64,000 bases of DNA from NCBI RefSeq assembly GCF_039537585.1, contig NZ_BAABAU010000001.1, forward strand, positions 186,001-250,000, in the 5' to 3' direction. Every line of letters starts with the position of its first letter. The first letter of the stretch is position 1. Below, piece by piece: positions 19,883 to 53,135 of this stretch. The position numbers and the translations under genes were made by a program. This stretch comes from Frondihabitans peucedani (GTDB lineage Bacteria; Actinomycetota; Actinomycetes; Actinomycetales; Microbacteriaceae). Below the pieces are notes generated by a model. It saw only the letters and a program-made list of their open reading frames with translations. It did not search any database and was not told the DNA's origin.

Positions 19883-20483
19883 CACGGCCGCGACGAAGGC
19901 CAGTGTCCGCATGCTGCTGACACTGGCCTTCGTCGCTGTCATCGTCTATCTGCTCGACCAGGGCACCAAGTGGCTGGTCACGCACAACCTGACGCTCGGA
20001 CAAGACGTCGACGTCCTGGGCCCCTGGCTGAGGCTCCACTTCGTGAAGAACCCCGGAGCGGCGTTCTCGCTCGCGACCGGGTCGACCTGGGTCTTCTCCC
20101 TCGCCGCTGCGGCGGTCGTGGTCGCGATCATCGTCTTCGCGCGCAGGATCCACTCGTTCCGCTGGGCGCTCATGCTCGGGATGCTCCTCGGCGGCACGCT
20201 CGGCAACCTCACCGACCGGCTCTTCCGGGAGCCCGGCTTCGGCGTCGGCCACGTCGTCGACTTCATCTACCTCCCGTGGATCCTGCCCGCCATCTTCAAC
20301 GTCGCCGACACCTTCATCGTGTCGAGCATGGGGCTCCTGCTGCTGCTGACGCTGCTCGGCGTGGGGCTCGACGGGGTGCGGGCCTCGAAGCGCGTCGACG
20401 CCGACGGCGTGGGTTCCGACGAGGCCTCGGGCGTCGATCCTGCGCACCCGGTCGCTTCCGCTCCCGCCCGAGACGACTCGTGA
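19869..20483 (+). CDS. lspA: Lipoprotein signal peptidase
   Basis: A 204-residue LspA, the membrane aspartyl protease that removes signal peptides from diacylglyceryl-modified prolipoproteins. Four membrane segments and the conserved [20 protein letters not shown] and NVADTFI motifs, with the two catalytic aspartates in the last two, are visible. The C-terminal 40 residues are a non-conserved tail. The start is uncertain: TTG 19869 overlaps wag31 by 14 bases and gives a short N-terminal tail as in other actinobacterial LspA; ATG 19911 would begin directly at the first membrane segment. Confidence 0.93.
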
Positions 20484-29674: not shown

Positions 29675-29734
29675 GACACGCAGTCCGGCCCGGGACACCA
29701 GTCGTTGACGGTGTCCGGGGCCGGAATGCGCGTG
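29675..29734. repeat. Dispersed 60-base palindrome, copy A
   Basis: Two 25-base arms (29675-29699 and 29710-29734) with only four mismatches flank a 10-base loop; the inner 16 bp (TCCGGCCCGGGACACC with its partner) has one mismatch. It sits between convergent pyrD and the DUF3043 gene and may act as a bidirectional terminator, although it has no T run. A second copy of identical dimensions and related sequence is at 53076-53135. Confidence 0.8.
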
Positions 29735-35135: not shown

Positions 35136-35558
35136 ATGAGAGCGCAATCGAACATCTTCTGGATCCTGGCCGTCTTCTTCTTCCTGGCCGACGCGGCGTA
35201 CACCGTGTGGAGCCTGCTGTCGCAGGAGTTCAAGGCGGTCGAGTGGACGGGCACGCTGGGTATCGGTCTTGCCGGCATCCTGTCGATCTTCCTGGCCTAC
35301 TACATGAACCGGTCGCACTTCGCGCAGACCGGCGAGCTCCCCGAAGACCGCCTCGACGCCGAGATCGACGACGGCGACCCCGAGATCGGGTTCTTCAACC
35401 CGTTCAGCTGGTGGCCCATCGTCCTCGCGGCCGGTTGCACCATGGTGTTCCTGGCTCTCGCCGTGGGCATGTGGCTGATCTTCTTCGGTGCTGCAATCAC
35501 TGCGGTCGCCCTCGTCGGCTGGGTCTACGAGAACTACCGCGGGGTCTACCGCCACTAG
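35136..35558 (+). CDS. ctaF: Cytochrome c oxidase subunit IV (actinobacterial CtaF)
   Basis: A 140-residue actinobacterial subunit IV of the aa3 oxidase, with four membrane segments (about 5-25, 35-52, 86-107 and 108-125) and the conserved PEIGFFNPFSWWPI loop. It stabilises subunits in the bcc-aa3 supercomplex. It is the last gene of the ctaCDF operon; a terminator follows 24 bases downstream. Confidence 0.95.
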   Translation: MRAQSNIFWILAVFFFLADAAYTVWSLLSQEFKAVEWTGTLGIGLAGILSIFLAYYMNRSHFAQTGELPEDRLDAEIDDGDPEIGFFNPFSWWPIVLAAGCTMVFLALAVGMWLIFFGAAITAVALVGWVYENYRGVYRH

Positions 35559-35582
35559 GCGGCCTGGTCCTCCTGCATTCGA

Positions 35583-35612
35583 GCGGGGCATCACCTTCGG
35601 GTGGTGCCCCGC
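35583..35612 (+). terminator. Terminator of the ctaC-ctaD-ctaF operon
   Basis: GCGGGGCATCACC (35583-35595) pairs with GGTGGTGCCCCGC (35600-35612) at 12 of 13 positions around a TTCG tetraloop. It is followed by a T-rich stretch. Confidence 0.93.
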
Positions 35613-35660
35613 TTCGTTGTGTGCAGCGGCAGCTGCTGCTATTGCTGGCCGGAGCGAGCC

Positions 35661-35900
35661 TGTCGAGATCGCGGGAGGCGTCGCTCTCGTCTCGCGGAGG
35701 CGACTCCTCCTGCGTTCTGGAGCTGCCGCGGCCGTTTGCCTAGGCACTGGCGGCTTGAGGTCGTGACCCCGCTGCCGGCTCGTTCCTCACGCGCGTCGCA
35801 CGTGTCTTTGGTTACCGTGCTGTGGAGTCGTCAGGCACCTCGTCGAGATCGCAGTAGACGCCGCTCACGTCTCGCTGGGGCGACTTCTCCTGCGATCTGG
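35661..35900. repeat. Two 60-base palindromes, 180 bases apart (type C)
   Basis: The segments 35661-35720 and 35841-35900 align without gaps at roughly 50 of 60 positions, and each folds on itself: GAGATCGC at the left pairs with GCGATCT-like sequence at the right, and CGTCGC/CCGC with GCGAC. Both share GTCTCGC in the loop. They share the core GAGATCGCAG with the tandem array that begins at 36001. No protein-coding function is seen between 35613 and 36652. Confidence 0.8.
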
Positions 35901-36000
35901 TCCCGCCGCCTCCGAGGGCTCTCCTGGCGTCGTCGTGAGGGTTCTGCCGCCCCTGGACACCCCGAGCGATAGGAGCTCGATGAGTCGAGCAGAGGCCGCC

Positions 36001-36620
36001 GAGATCGCAGTTCGACAAGTCTTGACGGGCGGGGTCATGTCGAAGTGCGATGTCGAAGCCGGAATGGTTTGAGCATGGCGGCAGGCTCGCCGAGACCGCG
36101 GTAGGCGTCGCCATAGTTGACCGGAAGGTGACGTGTAGTGCGATCTCGACGGGGGGATGGGTTGAGCAGGACGGCAGGCTCGCCGACATCGCAGTTCGAC
36201 ACGCTTTGACGGGCTGGGACTATGTCGAAGTGCGATCTCGACGCGGGGATGGTTGGAGCAAGGCGGCAGGGTCGCCGAGATCGCAGTAGACGTCGCCATA
36301 GTTGACCGGAAGGCGACGAGTAGTGCGCTCTCGAGGCCGGCATGGTTTGAGGAGGACGACAGGCTCGCCGAGATCGCAGTAAGCGTCGCCAAAGTCGACC
36401 AGAAGGCGACGAGAGTAGTGCGCTCTCGACGCGGGGGATCGTTTGAGCAGGACGGCAGGCTCGCCGAGATCGCAGTTCGACACGCTTTGACGGGCTGGGA
36501 CTATGTCGAAGTGCGATGTGTCGACGCGGGGATGGTTTGCGCATGGCGGCAGGCTCACCCGAGATCACCGTAGACGTCGCTCCAGCCGGGGGGAGAGGCG
36601 ACGACTAGTGCTACGTCGAG
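36001..36620. repeat. Seven tandem palindromic units of about 93 bases (types A and B)
   Basis: GAGATCGCAGT-like anchors occur at 36001, 36092, 36185, 36277, 36370, 36466 and 36561, spaced 91-96 bases. Type A units (36001, 36185, 36466) have arms ATCGCAGTTCGACA and TGTCGAAGTGCGAT. Type B units (36092, 36277, 36370, 36561) have arms like GAGATCGCAGTAGACGTCGC and GGCGACGAGTAGTGCG. Units are joined by a shared spacer with GGTTTGAGCA and GGCAGGCTCGCCGAG. The array lies between the convergent ctaCDF and ctaE-qcrCAB operons. The period is close to 31 codons, which keeps spurious frames open on both strands. Confidence 0.9.
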
Positions 36621-36652
36621 AAGCGCACCACCACGACCCCACAAAAGCCGAA

Positions 36653-36685
36653 CGGCCCGCCACACTGGAAGGTGTGGACGGGCCG
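36653..36685 (-). terminator. Terminator of the ctaE-qcrC-qcrA-qcrB operon
   Basis: On the minus strand, CGGCCCG with GTGTGG arms forms a stem (36671-36685 with 36653-36666) around a short loop. A CTTTT stretch follows within about ten bases (36643-36647 read in reverse). Confidence 0.85.
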
Positions 36686-36707
36686 CGCGGGGGAGGAGCG
36701 GTGTGAC

Positions 36708-38387
36708 CTAGTGCTTGCCGCCGGGGCCACCGTCGATCGCAGCGTGCGAGTCGTGGTGAGCAGCGTCGATCTCCGCCTTCGTGACCGGCGAAATGCGGTC
36801 CTCGAAGAAGAAGCCGGAGACGGAGGCACGCAGGCGCTCGATCGGCGTGACGACGCCACGCTCGTTCGGACGGACCATGAGCGGCTCGTACTCGTTGAAG
36901 CTGACCAGGGTCCAGCGCTCGTACTCGGTGAGCGGGGTGTGGACCTCGATGAACTCGCCGCCGGGGAGGCGGACGATACGACCCGACTCGTGCCCGTGGA
37001 GAGCGATCTCGCGGTCTTTCTTCTGGAGGCCGAGGCAGACGCGCTTGGTGATCCAGAAGGCGATGAACGGGCCGACCACGGCGAAGAACTGCATGACGTG
37101 GATGACCTGGTCGATCGACAGCTTGAAGTGAGTCGCCATGAGGTCGGACGAGGCAGCACCCCAGAGGGCCGCGTAGAGCGTCATGAGAGCCGCGCCGATG
37201 GCGGTGCGGGTCGGCGCGTTGCGCGGACGGTCGAGGATGTGGTGCTCGCGCTTGTCGCCGGTGACCCAGCCCTCGATGAAGGGGTAGAACGCCACCGTGG
37301 CGAGCAGGCCCATGAGGACGGCGATCGGGATCAGGATGTTGAACGAGACGGTGTAGCCGCCCCAGACGACTTCCCAGTGCGGGGGCACGAGACGCAGAGC
37401 GCCGTCCGCGAAGCCGATGTACCAGTCAGGCTGCGTACCCGCCGACACCGGGGAGGGGTCGTAGGGGCCGTAGTTCCAGATCGGGTTGATCGTGAAGAGC
37501 GACGCGATCAGGACGATGACACCGAAGACGATGAAGAAGAAGCCACCGGCCTTGGCTGCGAAGACCGGCATGACCGGCACGCCCACCACGTTGTCGTTCG
37601 TCTTGCCGGGGCCCGCGAACTGCGTGTGCTTGTTGATGACGAGCAGCAGGAGGTGCGCGCCGAGCATGGCGATCAGCAGGGCCGGGAGCAGCATGATGTG
37701 CAGCGAGTACAGGCGGCTGACGACCGCGGTGCCGGGGAACTCTCCGCCGAAGAGGAGGTACGAGATCCAGACGCCGATGACCGGGATGCCCTTCACCATG
37801 CCGTCGATGATCCGCAGGCCGTTTCCGGAGAGCAGGTCGTCAGGCAGCGAGTAGCCGGTGAAGCCCTCGGCCAGAGCCAGGATGAAGAGGACGAAGCCGA
37901 TGAACCAGTTCAGCTCGCGCGGCTTGCGGAACGCACCGGTGAAGTAGATGCGCAGCATGTGCAGGCCGATGGCCGCGATGAACAGCAGCGCCGCCCAGTG
38001 GTGGATCTGCCGGAAGAGCAGACCGCCGCGGATGTCGAACGAGATGTTCAGCGCCGACTGCATGGCGGCCGACATGTCGATGCCCTTGAGGGGCACGTAC
38101 GACCCCTGGTAGGTGACCTCGGCCATGGACGGCTGGAAGAAGAACGTCAGGAAGGTGCCCGAGAGCAGGATCACGACGAAGCTGTAGAGGGCGACCTCAC
38201 CGAGCATGAACGACCAGTGGTCGGGGAAGATCTTGCGACCCACCTCTTTGACCAGGCCGGAGATGCTGGTGCGCTCGTCGATGTAGTTTGCGGCGGCGCC
38301 CATGAACTTGCTGCCCTTTGCAGGGCGGAGGGGCGCATTGCCCTGTTCGGCGTAGGACGTCACGTGGGGTTCGGTGAGTGTGCTCAT
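36708..38387 (-). CDS. qcrB: Cytochrome bc complex cytochrome b subunit
   Basis: A 559-residue cytochrome b of the actinobacterial bcc complex, which oxidises menaquinol. Eight or more membrane segments, two haem-b His pairs (FRQIHHWAALLF with GLHMLRIYFTG; SLHIMLLPALL with GAHLLLLV) and a PDWYIGF segment near the quinol site are visible. The long C-terminal extension (about 440-559) is typical of Actinobacteria. The start overlaps the qcrA stop by four bases. The ef-loop region reads PIWNYGP. Confidence 0.97.
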   Translation of the reverse strand: MSTLTEPHVTSYAEQGNAPLRPAKGSKFMGAAANYIDERTSISGLVKEVGRKIFPDHWSFMLGEVALYSFVVILLSGTFLTFFFQPSMAEVTYQGSYVPLKGIDMSAAMQSALNISFDIRGGLLFRQIHHWAALLFIAAIGLHMLRIYFTGAFRKPRELNWFIGFVLFILALAEGFTGYSLPDDLLSGNGLRIIDGMVKGIPVIGVWISYLLFGGEFPGTAVVSRLYSLHIMLLPALLIAMLGAHLLLLVINKHTQFAGPGKTNDNVVGVPVMPVFAAKAGGFFFIVFGVIVLIASLFTINPIWNYGPYDPSPVSAGTQPDWYIGFADGALRLVPPHWEVVWGGYTVSFNILIPIAVLMGLLATVAFYPFIEGWVTGDKREHHILDRPRNAPTRTAIGAALMTLYAALWGAASSDLMATHFKLSIDQVIHVMQFFAVVGPFIAFWITKRVCLGLQKKDREIALHGHESGRIVRLPGGEFIEVHTPLTEYERWTLVSFNEYEPLMVRPNERGVVTPIERLRASVSGFFFEDRISPVTKAEIDAAHHDSHAAIDGGPGGKH

Positions 38388-53075: not shown

Positions 53076-53135
53076 GACACGCATTCCGGCCCGACTCACG
53101 CGGTACAACCCGTGTCTCGGGCCGAACTGCGTGTC
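53076..53135. repeat. Dispersed 60-base palindrome, copy B
   Basis: Two 25-base arms (53076-53100 and 53111-53135), four mismatches, 10-base loop: exactly the geometry of copy A at 29675. The first 18 bases, GACACGCATTCCGGCCCG, match copy A at 17 of 18. It lies in the 424-base gap between the divergent iron permease family gene and the peptide-binding protein gene. Confidence 0.8.

Follow-up and report, generated by a model that had tools for sequence, protein, structure and literature searches.

The gap between ctaF and qcrB of Frondihabitans peucedani, towards which two respiratory operons converge, holds nine imperfect palindromes that belong to a family dispersed over the whole genome. 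The family occurs in two alternating forms of fixed length (A and B), and is found mostly where the 3' ends of converging genes meet. In the related genus Curtobacterium, long palindromes at lasting positions were found to differ between lineages and to resemble the other copy of their own genome. What we infer from these observations, a putative two-way transcription stop with its possible carrier and route of spread, is weighed below against other readings.

The Array between ctaF and qcrB

The window analysed here comprises 64,000 nucleotides (contig NZ_BAABAU010000001.1 of assembly GCF_039537585.1, positions 186,001 to 250,000), and coordinates given without a locus label refer to it. Two genes, which we take from the first reading of the sequence and from general knowledge to be ctaF (35136..35558, plus strand, with an orthologue in all seven genomes of the genus) and qcrB (36708..38387, minus strand), point into the gap according to their open reading frames and end at 35558 and 36708, respectively, in line with the original prediction of an array between convergent genes. 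Two covariance models assign the palindromes the order B' B' A B A B B A B. The copies starting at 36091, 36184, 36276 and 36465 were in the training sets of these models, so that their scores are partly by construction, while the remaining five were outside the training sets.

The first two palindromes, both of 57 bp, lie at 35664..35720 (plus strand; B model E 4e-10, RNA folding z −4.4) and at 35844..35900 (44.4 bits on the minus and 39.8 bits on the plus strand with the B model; z −2.7), and start 180 bases apart. They had been described as a separate kind, C, at the head of the order C C A B A B B A B; the order was recovered, but there is no third kind, as these copies are diverged B units with best scores of 43.1 and 44.4 bits under the B model against 23.4 and 24.6 bits under the A model. 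Seven tandem units follow on the plus strand: A at 36000..36055 (56 bp; A model 61.6 bits, E 8e-18; z −4.8), B at 36091..36148 (58 bp; B model 58.7 bits; z −4.6), A at 36184..36240 (57 bp; 71.4 bits, E 5e-21; z −2.4), B at 36276..36333 (58 bp; 67.2 bits, E 4e-17; z −4.6), B at 36369..36428 (60 bp; 52.2 bits; z −4.6), A at 36465..36521 (57 bp; 63.1 bits, E 3e-18; z −2.0) and B at 36560..36618 (32.9 bits; z +0.5). Their start-to-start distances of 91, 93, 92, 93, 96 and 95 bases, like the places of all nine palindromes, are those originally described. Eight of the copies fold with z from −2.0 to −4.8, and the last one is decayed. The array itself is a tandem duplication in which some copies are partly decayed, and it is the largest cluster found of the A/B family.

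Terminator-like hairpins at both flanking genes indicate that the array lies between two ordinary gene ends. The hairpin after ctaF (35582..35613, plus strand) is present in the same or a similar form after ctaF in all seven genomes of the genus, and the one after qcrB (36654..36684, minus strand), which was recognised by eye and left unscored by our terminator script, is followed by CTTTTG on the minus strand (36642-36647). Comparing 35401-36900 with Rfam gave no match that reached the gathering score; the two with E below 1 fell far short of it. The impression that the sequence is unlike any named repeat was borne out, with no similar one in the libraries and searchable papers, and none of the matches listed among open-licence texts (titles and abstract starts) dealt with such repeats in Microbacteriaceae.

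The A/B Family in the Genome

The motif CGAGATCGCAG was found 64 times in the genome of 3.69 Mb and not once in the reversed control, which is beyond chance. Form A measures 57 bp (CGAGATCGCAGTTCGACA, 21 bases and TGTCGAAGTGCGATCTCG) and form B 58 bp (CGAGATCGCAGTAGNYGTCGC, 16 bases and GCGACGNCTACTGCGATCTCG). Each unit consists of two inverted half-sites of about 20 bp at a fixed spacing around a variable centre, with CGAGATCGCASTTCGACA in A and CGAGATCGCASTAGNYGTCG in B. Searching for half-sites with up to two mismatches yielded 38 matches for A and 49 for B (0 and 3 in the reversed controls). From these, 19 A and 25 B units were counted, 44 in all, which occupy 19 places; nine of the units are in the window. 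Half-site matches without a partner were limited to one for A and three for B, A and B halves were never mixed inside one unit, and one chance match within a gene (L045) was left out of the copy set. Since half-sites are almost never alone, the genome shows no longer element with A/B ends, such as the autonomous partner of a MITE would be.

Neighbouring units less than 400 bases apart alternate in 22 of 23 cases in the catalogue (12 BA, 10 AB and one BB), or in 23 of 25 once the two window copies missed by the catalogue, the first and the last, are added. Outside the window, all 16 catalogued A copies measure 57 bp and all 19 B copies 58 bp; the first look at the copies permitted lengths of 36-61 bases. 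The arms are conserved, while the centres are near random in most sets: the identity of the centres, real against shuffled, was 0.44 vs 0.39 in A and 0.56 vs 0.47 in B, 0.49 vs 0.45 and 0.50 vs 0.39 in two Curtobacterium strains, and 0.62 vs 0.42 for the 6-base centre of Frondihabitans sp. Leaf304. Similarity ends about 3 bp beyond the unit in F. peucedani, where the flanks of the A/B units show only a weak GCG-type consensus, and a weaker similarity extends about 8 bases beyond it in Curtobacterium MCBD17_013. GTAG is found inside the B stem and is absent from A. Helical phasing of the spacers is weak (R 0.40, p 0.12; 13 spacers, one per duplicated unit).

According to the original prediction, an array with no copies elsewhere, no compensatory change in its arms at homologous loci and no transcript or protein binding would have been a decaying local duplication. 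The search of the genome and its relatives instead found copies genome-wide, which rule out a merely local decaying duplication, as well as the arm pair in relatives and covariation of the arms across lineages (see below).

Position Relative to Genes

Genes were called with an in-house codon-score script, not with a standard gene finder, and the orientation counts that follow rest on these calls. Across the window and a further 20 stretches, each of 20 kb and 11 of them selected for holding known elements, 12 of 13 element-bearing gaps were convergent, compared to 48 of 372 other gaps (Fisher 9e-10); among gaps of at least 60 bases, the counts were 12 of 13 with and 29 of 190 without elements (1e-8). 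All 19 places in the F. peucedani genome divide into 15 convergent, four same-direction and no divergent gaps. When the named loci of other genomes are included, 62 of the 91 classed clusters (107 minus 15 at locus edges and one inside a gene) are convergent as against 62 of 425 other gene pairs, the comparisons of orientation, strand bias and flanking genes being based only on units of 48, 57, 58, 60 or 63 bases.

Palindromes of at least 44 bases were also searched de novo, a search in which shuffled gaps yield at most one per class. They were present in 13 of 21 convergent, 5 of 54 same-direction and 1 of 23 divergent gaps of the window and the unpicked stretches of F. peucedani; the corresponding counts were 28/38, 19/116 and 2/55 in ten Curtobacterium genomes, 8/15, 8/57 and 1/25 in six congeners, and 8/21, 8/98 and 0/42 in 18 other Microbacteriaceae. 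At a minimum length of 40 bases, six order-level stretches gave 1/6, 1/29 and 0/13, and two further stretches from the family, one without any called gene, gave 0/2, 0/1 and 0/3. As such palindromes occupy many convergent gaps in these bacteria, the A/B family shares convergent ends with several other families of long palindromes. In same-direction gaps, 39 of 47 long palindromes lie nearer to the upstream stop than to the downstream start. The residual gap length is 95 bases with elements and 85 bases in palindrome-free gaps.

Several other palindromes were seen nearby and are reported here for completeness. A second family of F. peucedani (58-74 bases, arms like ACGCGCATTCCGGCCC) has two copies in the window (29676-29733 and 53076-53135) and three elsewhere (L167 2461-2518 and 19653-19714; L183 16741-16814), the five lying in two convergent, two same-direction and one divergent gap. 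A third family (62-64 bases, AAACCCTCGCGATCGGC..GAGGGTTT) has four copies, all in convergent gaps (L169 471-534; L175 2278-2339, 2416-2479 and 2587-2650), which end in A/T runs like two-way terminators, and a fourth (56-60 bases, GCGACAAGAAACCACG..CGTGGTTTCTTGTCGC) was found in two convergent gaps (L166 3176-3231; L174 1392-1451). Palindromes of the type CGGACGGGAGGC..GCCTCCCGTCCG, about 44-62 bases long, occupy convergent and same-direction gaps in most of ten Curtobacterium genomes (L252-L271). Curtobacterium VKM Ac-2865 has the unit embedded in tandem mosaics of about 270-320 bases that include other palindromes and are common to distant loci (L108 1983-2611, L115 300-1240, L153 88-776). 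A near-perfect palindrome of 47 bases lies in the window at 19890-19936, 8 bases past a gene in a same-direction gap, and three clustered copies of a 63-75-base palindrome were noted in other genomes (L246 10329-10720; L188 6747-7217; L269 17500-17964).

Relatives and Concerted Turnover

In a scan of named genomes, whose catalogue covers near-exact arms only (81 stretches reported, 80 loci listed), the arm pair was found in many Curtobacterium strains, Frondihabitans sp. Leaf304, Leucobacter soli and another Microbacteriaceae isolate, at one locus in Mycetocola manganoxydans, and at one locus each in Rhodococcoides fascians, Leekyejoonella antrihumi and a Pseudonocardiales MAG. The strict element pattern is present in 8 of 299 genomes of the family Microbacteriaceae. 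Unit length is nearly constant per species, being 48 in Leaf304 (18/20), 60 in Leucobacter (4/4), 57 or 58 depending on the strain in Curtobacterium (at 58, for example, 20/20, 18/19 and 13/14) and mostly 48-63 in other species. Among 185 flanking genes, three clusters, at most candidates for a shared neighbourhood, joined F. peucedani with other genomes; two of the three are presumably transporter families that may be paralogous.

In the six congeners, no A/B-like unit was found within 1497 bases after ctaF. Other long palindromes follow ctaF in three of them (G001, G003 and G005) and none in G002, G004 and G006. These palindromes are unrelated and lie, counted from the ctaF stop, at 265-427 (L159), 297-943 (L160) and 430-489 (L162, reversed).

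The HK-groEL locus of Curtobacterium was matched in 39 of 40 genomes, and 30 loci were compared, with palindromes picked by hand and a GC-rich hairpin beside groEL omitted. One position for palindromes lies 7-229 bases past the HK stop and a second at about 1.1-1.4 kb; by reading, both are filled at 12 loci, one at nine and neither at nine. Their sequence depends on the lineage (CGAGATCGCAGTCGTTGCCG, CGAGATCGCACTTCGTGCCG, CGAGGTCGCACGAACTGCCG, GAGCGGTCACGATCTGTCG and others). In 12 genomes, the two palindromes of the same genome reached a mean alignment score of 30.9, compared to 15.7 and 14.8 at the orthologous positions, 14.5 for other pairs and 8.9 for shuffled sequences (permutation p 5e-5, with related genomes equally weighted), so that a same-genome pair is about twice as alike as the average orthologous pair. 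In 8 of the 12, another genome's best orthologous palindrome of the first position outscores the genome's own pair, which indicates that the palindrome type is inherited within a lineage and varies from one lineage to another. A palindrome of these bacteria can stay at its position even as its sequence changes together with that of the genome's other copies. At one locus (L218, G318:C33), the HK gene beside groEL contains one in-frame TGA, possibly a sequence error.

Pairing, Folding and Terminator Tests

The suggestion that folding is maintained in the arms held between lineages but not within one genome. Across lineages (65 sequences of 58 bp, 64 of them distinct), 85.9% of the cells are paired against 80.8% in shuffles, and double-change cells number 148 against 70 ± 10, while two of five covariation measures (pairs changed on both sides, and further pair types) were no higher than in shuffles. 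Within genomes, columns 12-20 show 26 double changes against 25.4 and a paired fraction of 0.821 against 0.819; three strains, taken singly, show a slight excess (p 0.05-0.08). In an orientation-free test of 132 copies, columns 12-20 pair as expected for independent half-sites, and pairing is deficient at column 21 (45 against an expected 62.9, p 0.002) and column 22 (40 against 64.1, p 0.001). This independence of the arms, together with the deficit at columns 21-22, points to two half-sites that conform to a consensus particular to their genome and show a directed asymmetry by the centre. As the arms are uncompensated within genomes, a pure hairpin reading is weakened, although a long hairpin may tolerate single mismatches. 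Of all folded units, ten of 11 had z from −2.0 to −8.1 and one +0.5. When the copies were oriented by their mismatch at position 11, GT (48) and AC (70) gave no sign of a G-U preference, and the asymmetry at position 11 is not interpretable because the search patterns demanded G in at least one arm.

A U-tract, taken as at least four T in the nine bases past the palindrome, accompanied 1 of 86 strands for the 43 convergent-gap palindromes of all families in F. peucedani, and 4 of 74 strands in Curtobacterium. The A/B palindromes are not canonical terminators. Canonical terminators were rare in every group of convergent gaps, being scored on the left in two and on the right in one of 12 convergent gaps with elements, in two and five of 14 gaps with other long palindromes, and in none and three of 21 gaps with neither, by a script that also scores 10 of 94 shuffled strands and missed the qcrB hairpin. 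Short hairpins in the leftover gap sequence fail to separate these groups of gaps.

As a candidate mobiliser, a Y1/RAYT transposase was looked for with PF01797 (E 0.001) and was found in none of 14 genomes, including all eight with the strict element pattern, in a search whose control was positive in 5 of 14 known genomes and which could miss a very divergent relative.

Comparison with Known Systems

The assignment of the units to the REP/BIME-like dispersed extragenic palindromes, of an untagged, longer and less numerous sort without a detected RAYT, is well supported. The comparison with BIME/REP clusters made in the original prediction fits, given a dispersed family of two alternating types with an extragenic, 3'-end location. 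In E. coli, BIMEs bind gyrase, IHF or Pol I. Like these mosaics of Y and Z REPs, the A/B units are dispersed extragenic palindromes of which two types are combined in clusters, with a preference for 3' ends and convergent genes. They differ in having units of 57 or 58 bp, no GTAG foot, no TnpAREP/RAYT found and 44 copies, and in belonging to another phylum; REP units in BIMEs measure 29-37 bp according to the available parts of PMC8266576. Tagged REPs have a length of 20-40 bp in the accessible text of PMC3733652, as compared with 57 or 58 bp in all 35 A/B copies outside the window, and usually exceed 100 copies per genome in that of PMC2817692, as compared with 44 here. In the portions available of PMC3733652 and PMC3116915, tagged REPs and REPINs are, like the A/B units, species-specific palindromes between same-direction and convergent genes, and both groups are extragenic and near 3' ends. 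Unlike GTAG/CGTC-tagged REPs, which carry an unpaired foot tag, the A/B units have none, their palindromes are longer, a Y1 was not found, and positions can persist as types turn over together. The string "actinobacter" has no occurrence in the main text of PMC3733652 as available, and the accessible part of PMC12306157 names three actinomycetes, none from Microbacteriaceae.

A second resemblance is to termination by polymerase collision. In E. coli, according to the available part of PMC13082048, convergent transcripts come to an end when polymerases collide head-on, and the collision is fixed and stabilised by a nascent hairpin. Both systems have a hairpin in the gap of two convergent genes, whereas the A/B units form a repeated family with conserved outer arms, a fixed length and no U-tract, and termination by them would be by analogy.

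The third likeness is to the DNA uptake sequences of Neisseriaceae, which form inverted pairs at the ends of genes. A repeated word that takes on a different dialect in each lineage, as presented in the accessible text of PMC3630211, recalls the palindromes described here; the A/B family differs in its 57-bp paired unit and its tens of copies, and has no evidence of uptake.

Possible Roles of the Palindromes

Our best explanation, put forward tentatively and at somewhat less than even confidence, is that the A/B units may stop transcription from either side where genes converge, through hairpins that act when polymerases collide, as in E. coli. The units appear to spread and grow alike within a genome by a route for which no Y1/RAYT was found, and are retained mostly at convergent 3' ends. 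Each of the converging RNA polymerases would form a long hairpin without a U-tract, the hairpins would fix and stabilise the site of collision, and neither transcript would enter the opposite gene; between ctaF and qcrB, the nine units would then constitute a reinforced two-way stop besides the terminator-like hairpins of both genes. Such a stop is favoured by the dispersed family, its alternation, convergent place, 3' bias and hairpin folding, by the generality of long palindromes in convergent gaps and by the E. coli analogy. It is disfavoured by the missing U-tract, the uncompensated arms within genomes, the fixed length with a variable centre, which a hairpin loop does not need, and the A/B family in none of six congeners after ctaF. 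The residual gap lengths (95 vs 85 bases) fit mere insertion equally well, and genes may do without stops, as 18 of the 21 convergent gaps that lack long palindromes have no canonical terminator either.

That insertion alone accounts for the family is somewhat unlikely in our judgement. Selfish or neutral REP-like elements would multiply and settle in convergent gaps as harmless sites, with no function for the host, and the sharp unit boundaries, the lineage-specific families, the tandem duplication in the window, a residual gap length resembling that of ordinary gaps, the rarity in divergent gaps, where promoters lie, and the 9 of 30 Curtobacterium loci with both positions empty (by reading) agree with this. 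Yet positions persist across several Curtobacterium lineages in spite of changes in sequence type, arms are conserved around centres that are near random in most sets, and no mobilising enzyme was found. Concerted turnover at fixed positions (30.9 vs 15.7 and 14.8) would fit a protein-bound roadblock, in which a dimer or tetramer on both 20-bp half-sites blocks polymerases from both sides and a drifting specificity creates the dialect, as would the fixed length with a variable centre, half-sites that are nearly always paired and vary independently within genomes, and similarity ending about 3 bp outside the unit in F. peucedani. We nevertheless regard it as unlikely, given that half-sites of 20 bp are long for a simple dimer, that A and B halves are unmixed within a unit, although descent explains this as well, that helical phasing is weak (p 0.12), and that the drift is slow and follows descent (an orthologous palindrome above the own pair in 8 of 12 genomes).

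A topological role, in which gyrase or a nucleoid protein would act at the units to relieve positive supercoils between converging polymerases, as proposed for E. coli BIMEs, would suit the convergent location and the place of the largest array, between two operons that general knowledge leads one to expect to be strongly expressed. This role is improbable, as several places hold one unit only and the flanking genes, from a reading of unannotated proteins, are unlike a strongly expressed set. Roadblock terminators are known from yeast, and a protein-dependent stop would be their bacterial counterpart. A broader form of this roadblock, in which high-GC actinobacteria would use a genome-wide, two-way, protein-dependent stop, with paired 20-bp half-sites at lasting positions between converging genes and a putative reader protein whose drifting specificity would carry all sites of a genome from one dialect to the next, seems to us rather doubtful.

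Implications for Converging Transcripts

How high-GC bacteria with rare U-tract terminators separate converging transcripts is, in our view, unsettled. If palindromes do so, one repeat class would explain about half to three quarters of the sampled convergent gaps (8/15, 13/21 and 28/38 in the Frondihabitans and Curtobacterium stretches sampled). Concerted change at lasting positions would call for a way of copying other than by RAYT or for a reader protein that co-evolves, and each of these would be new to us.
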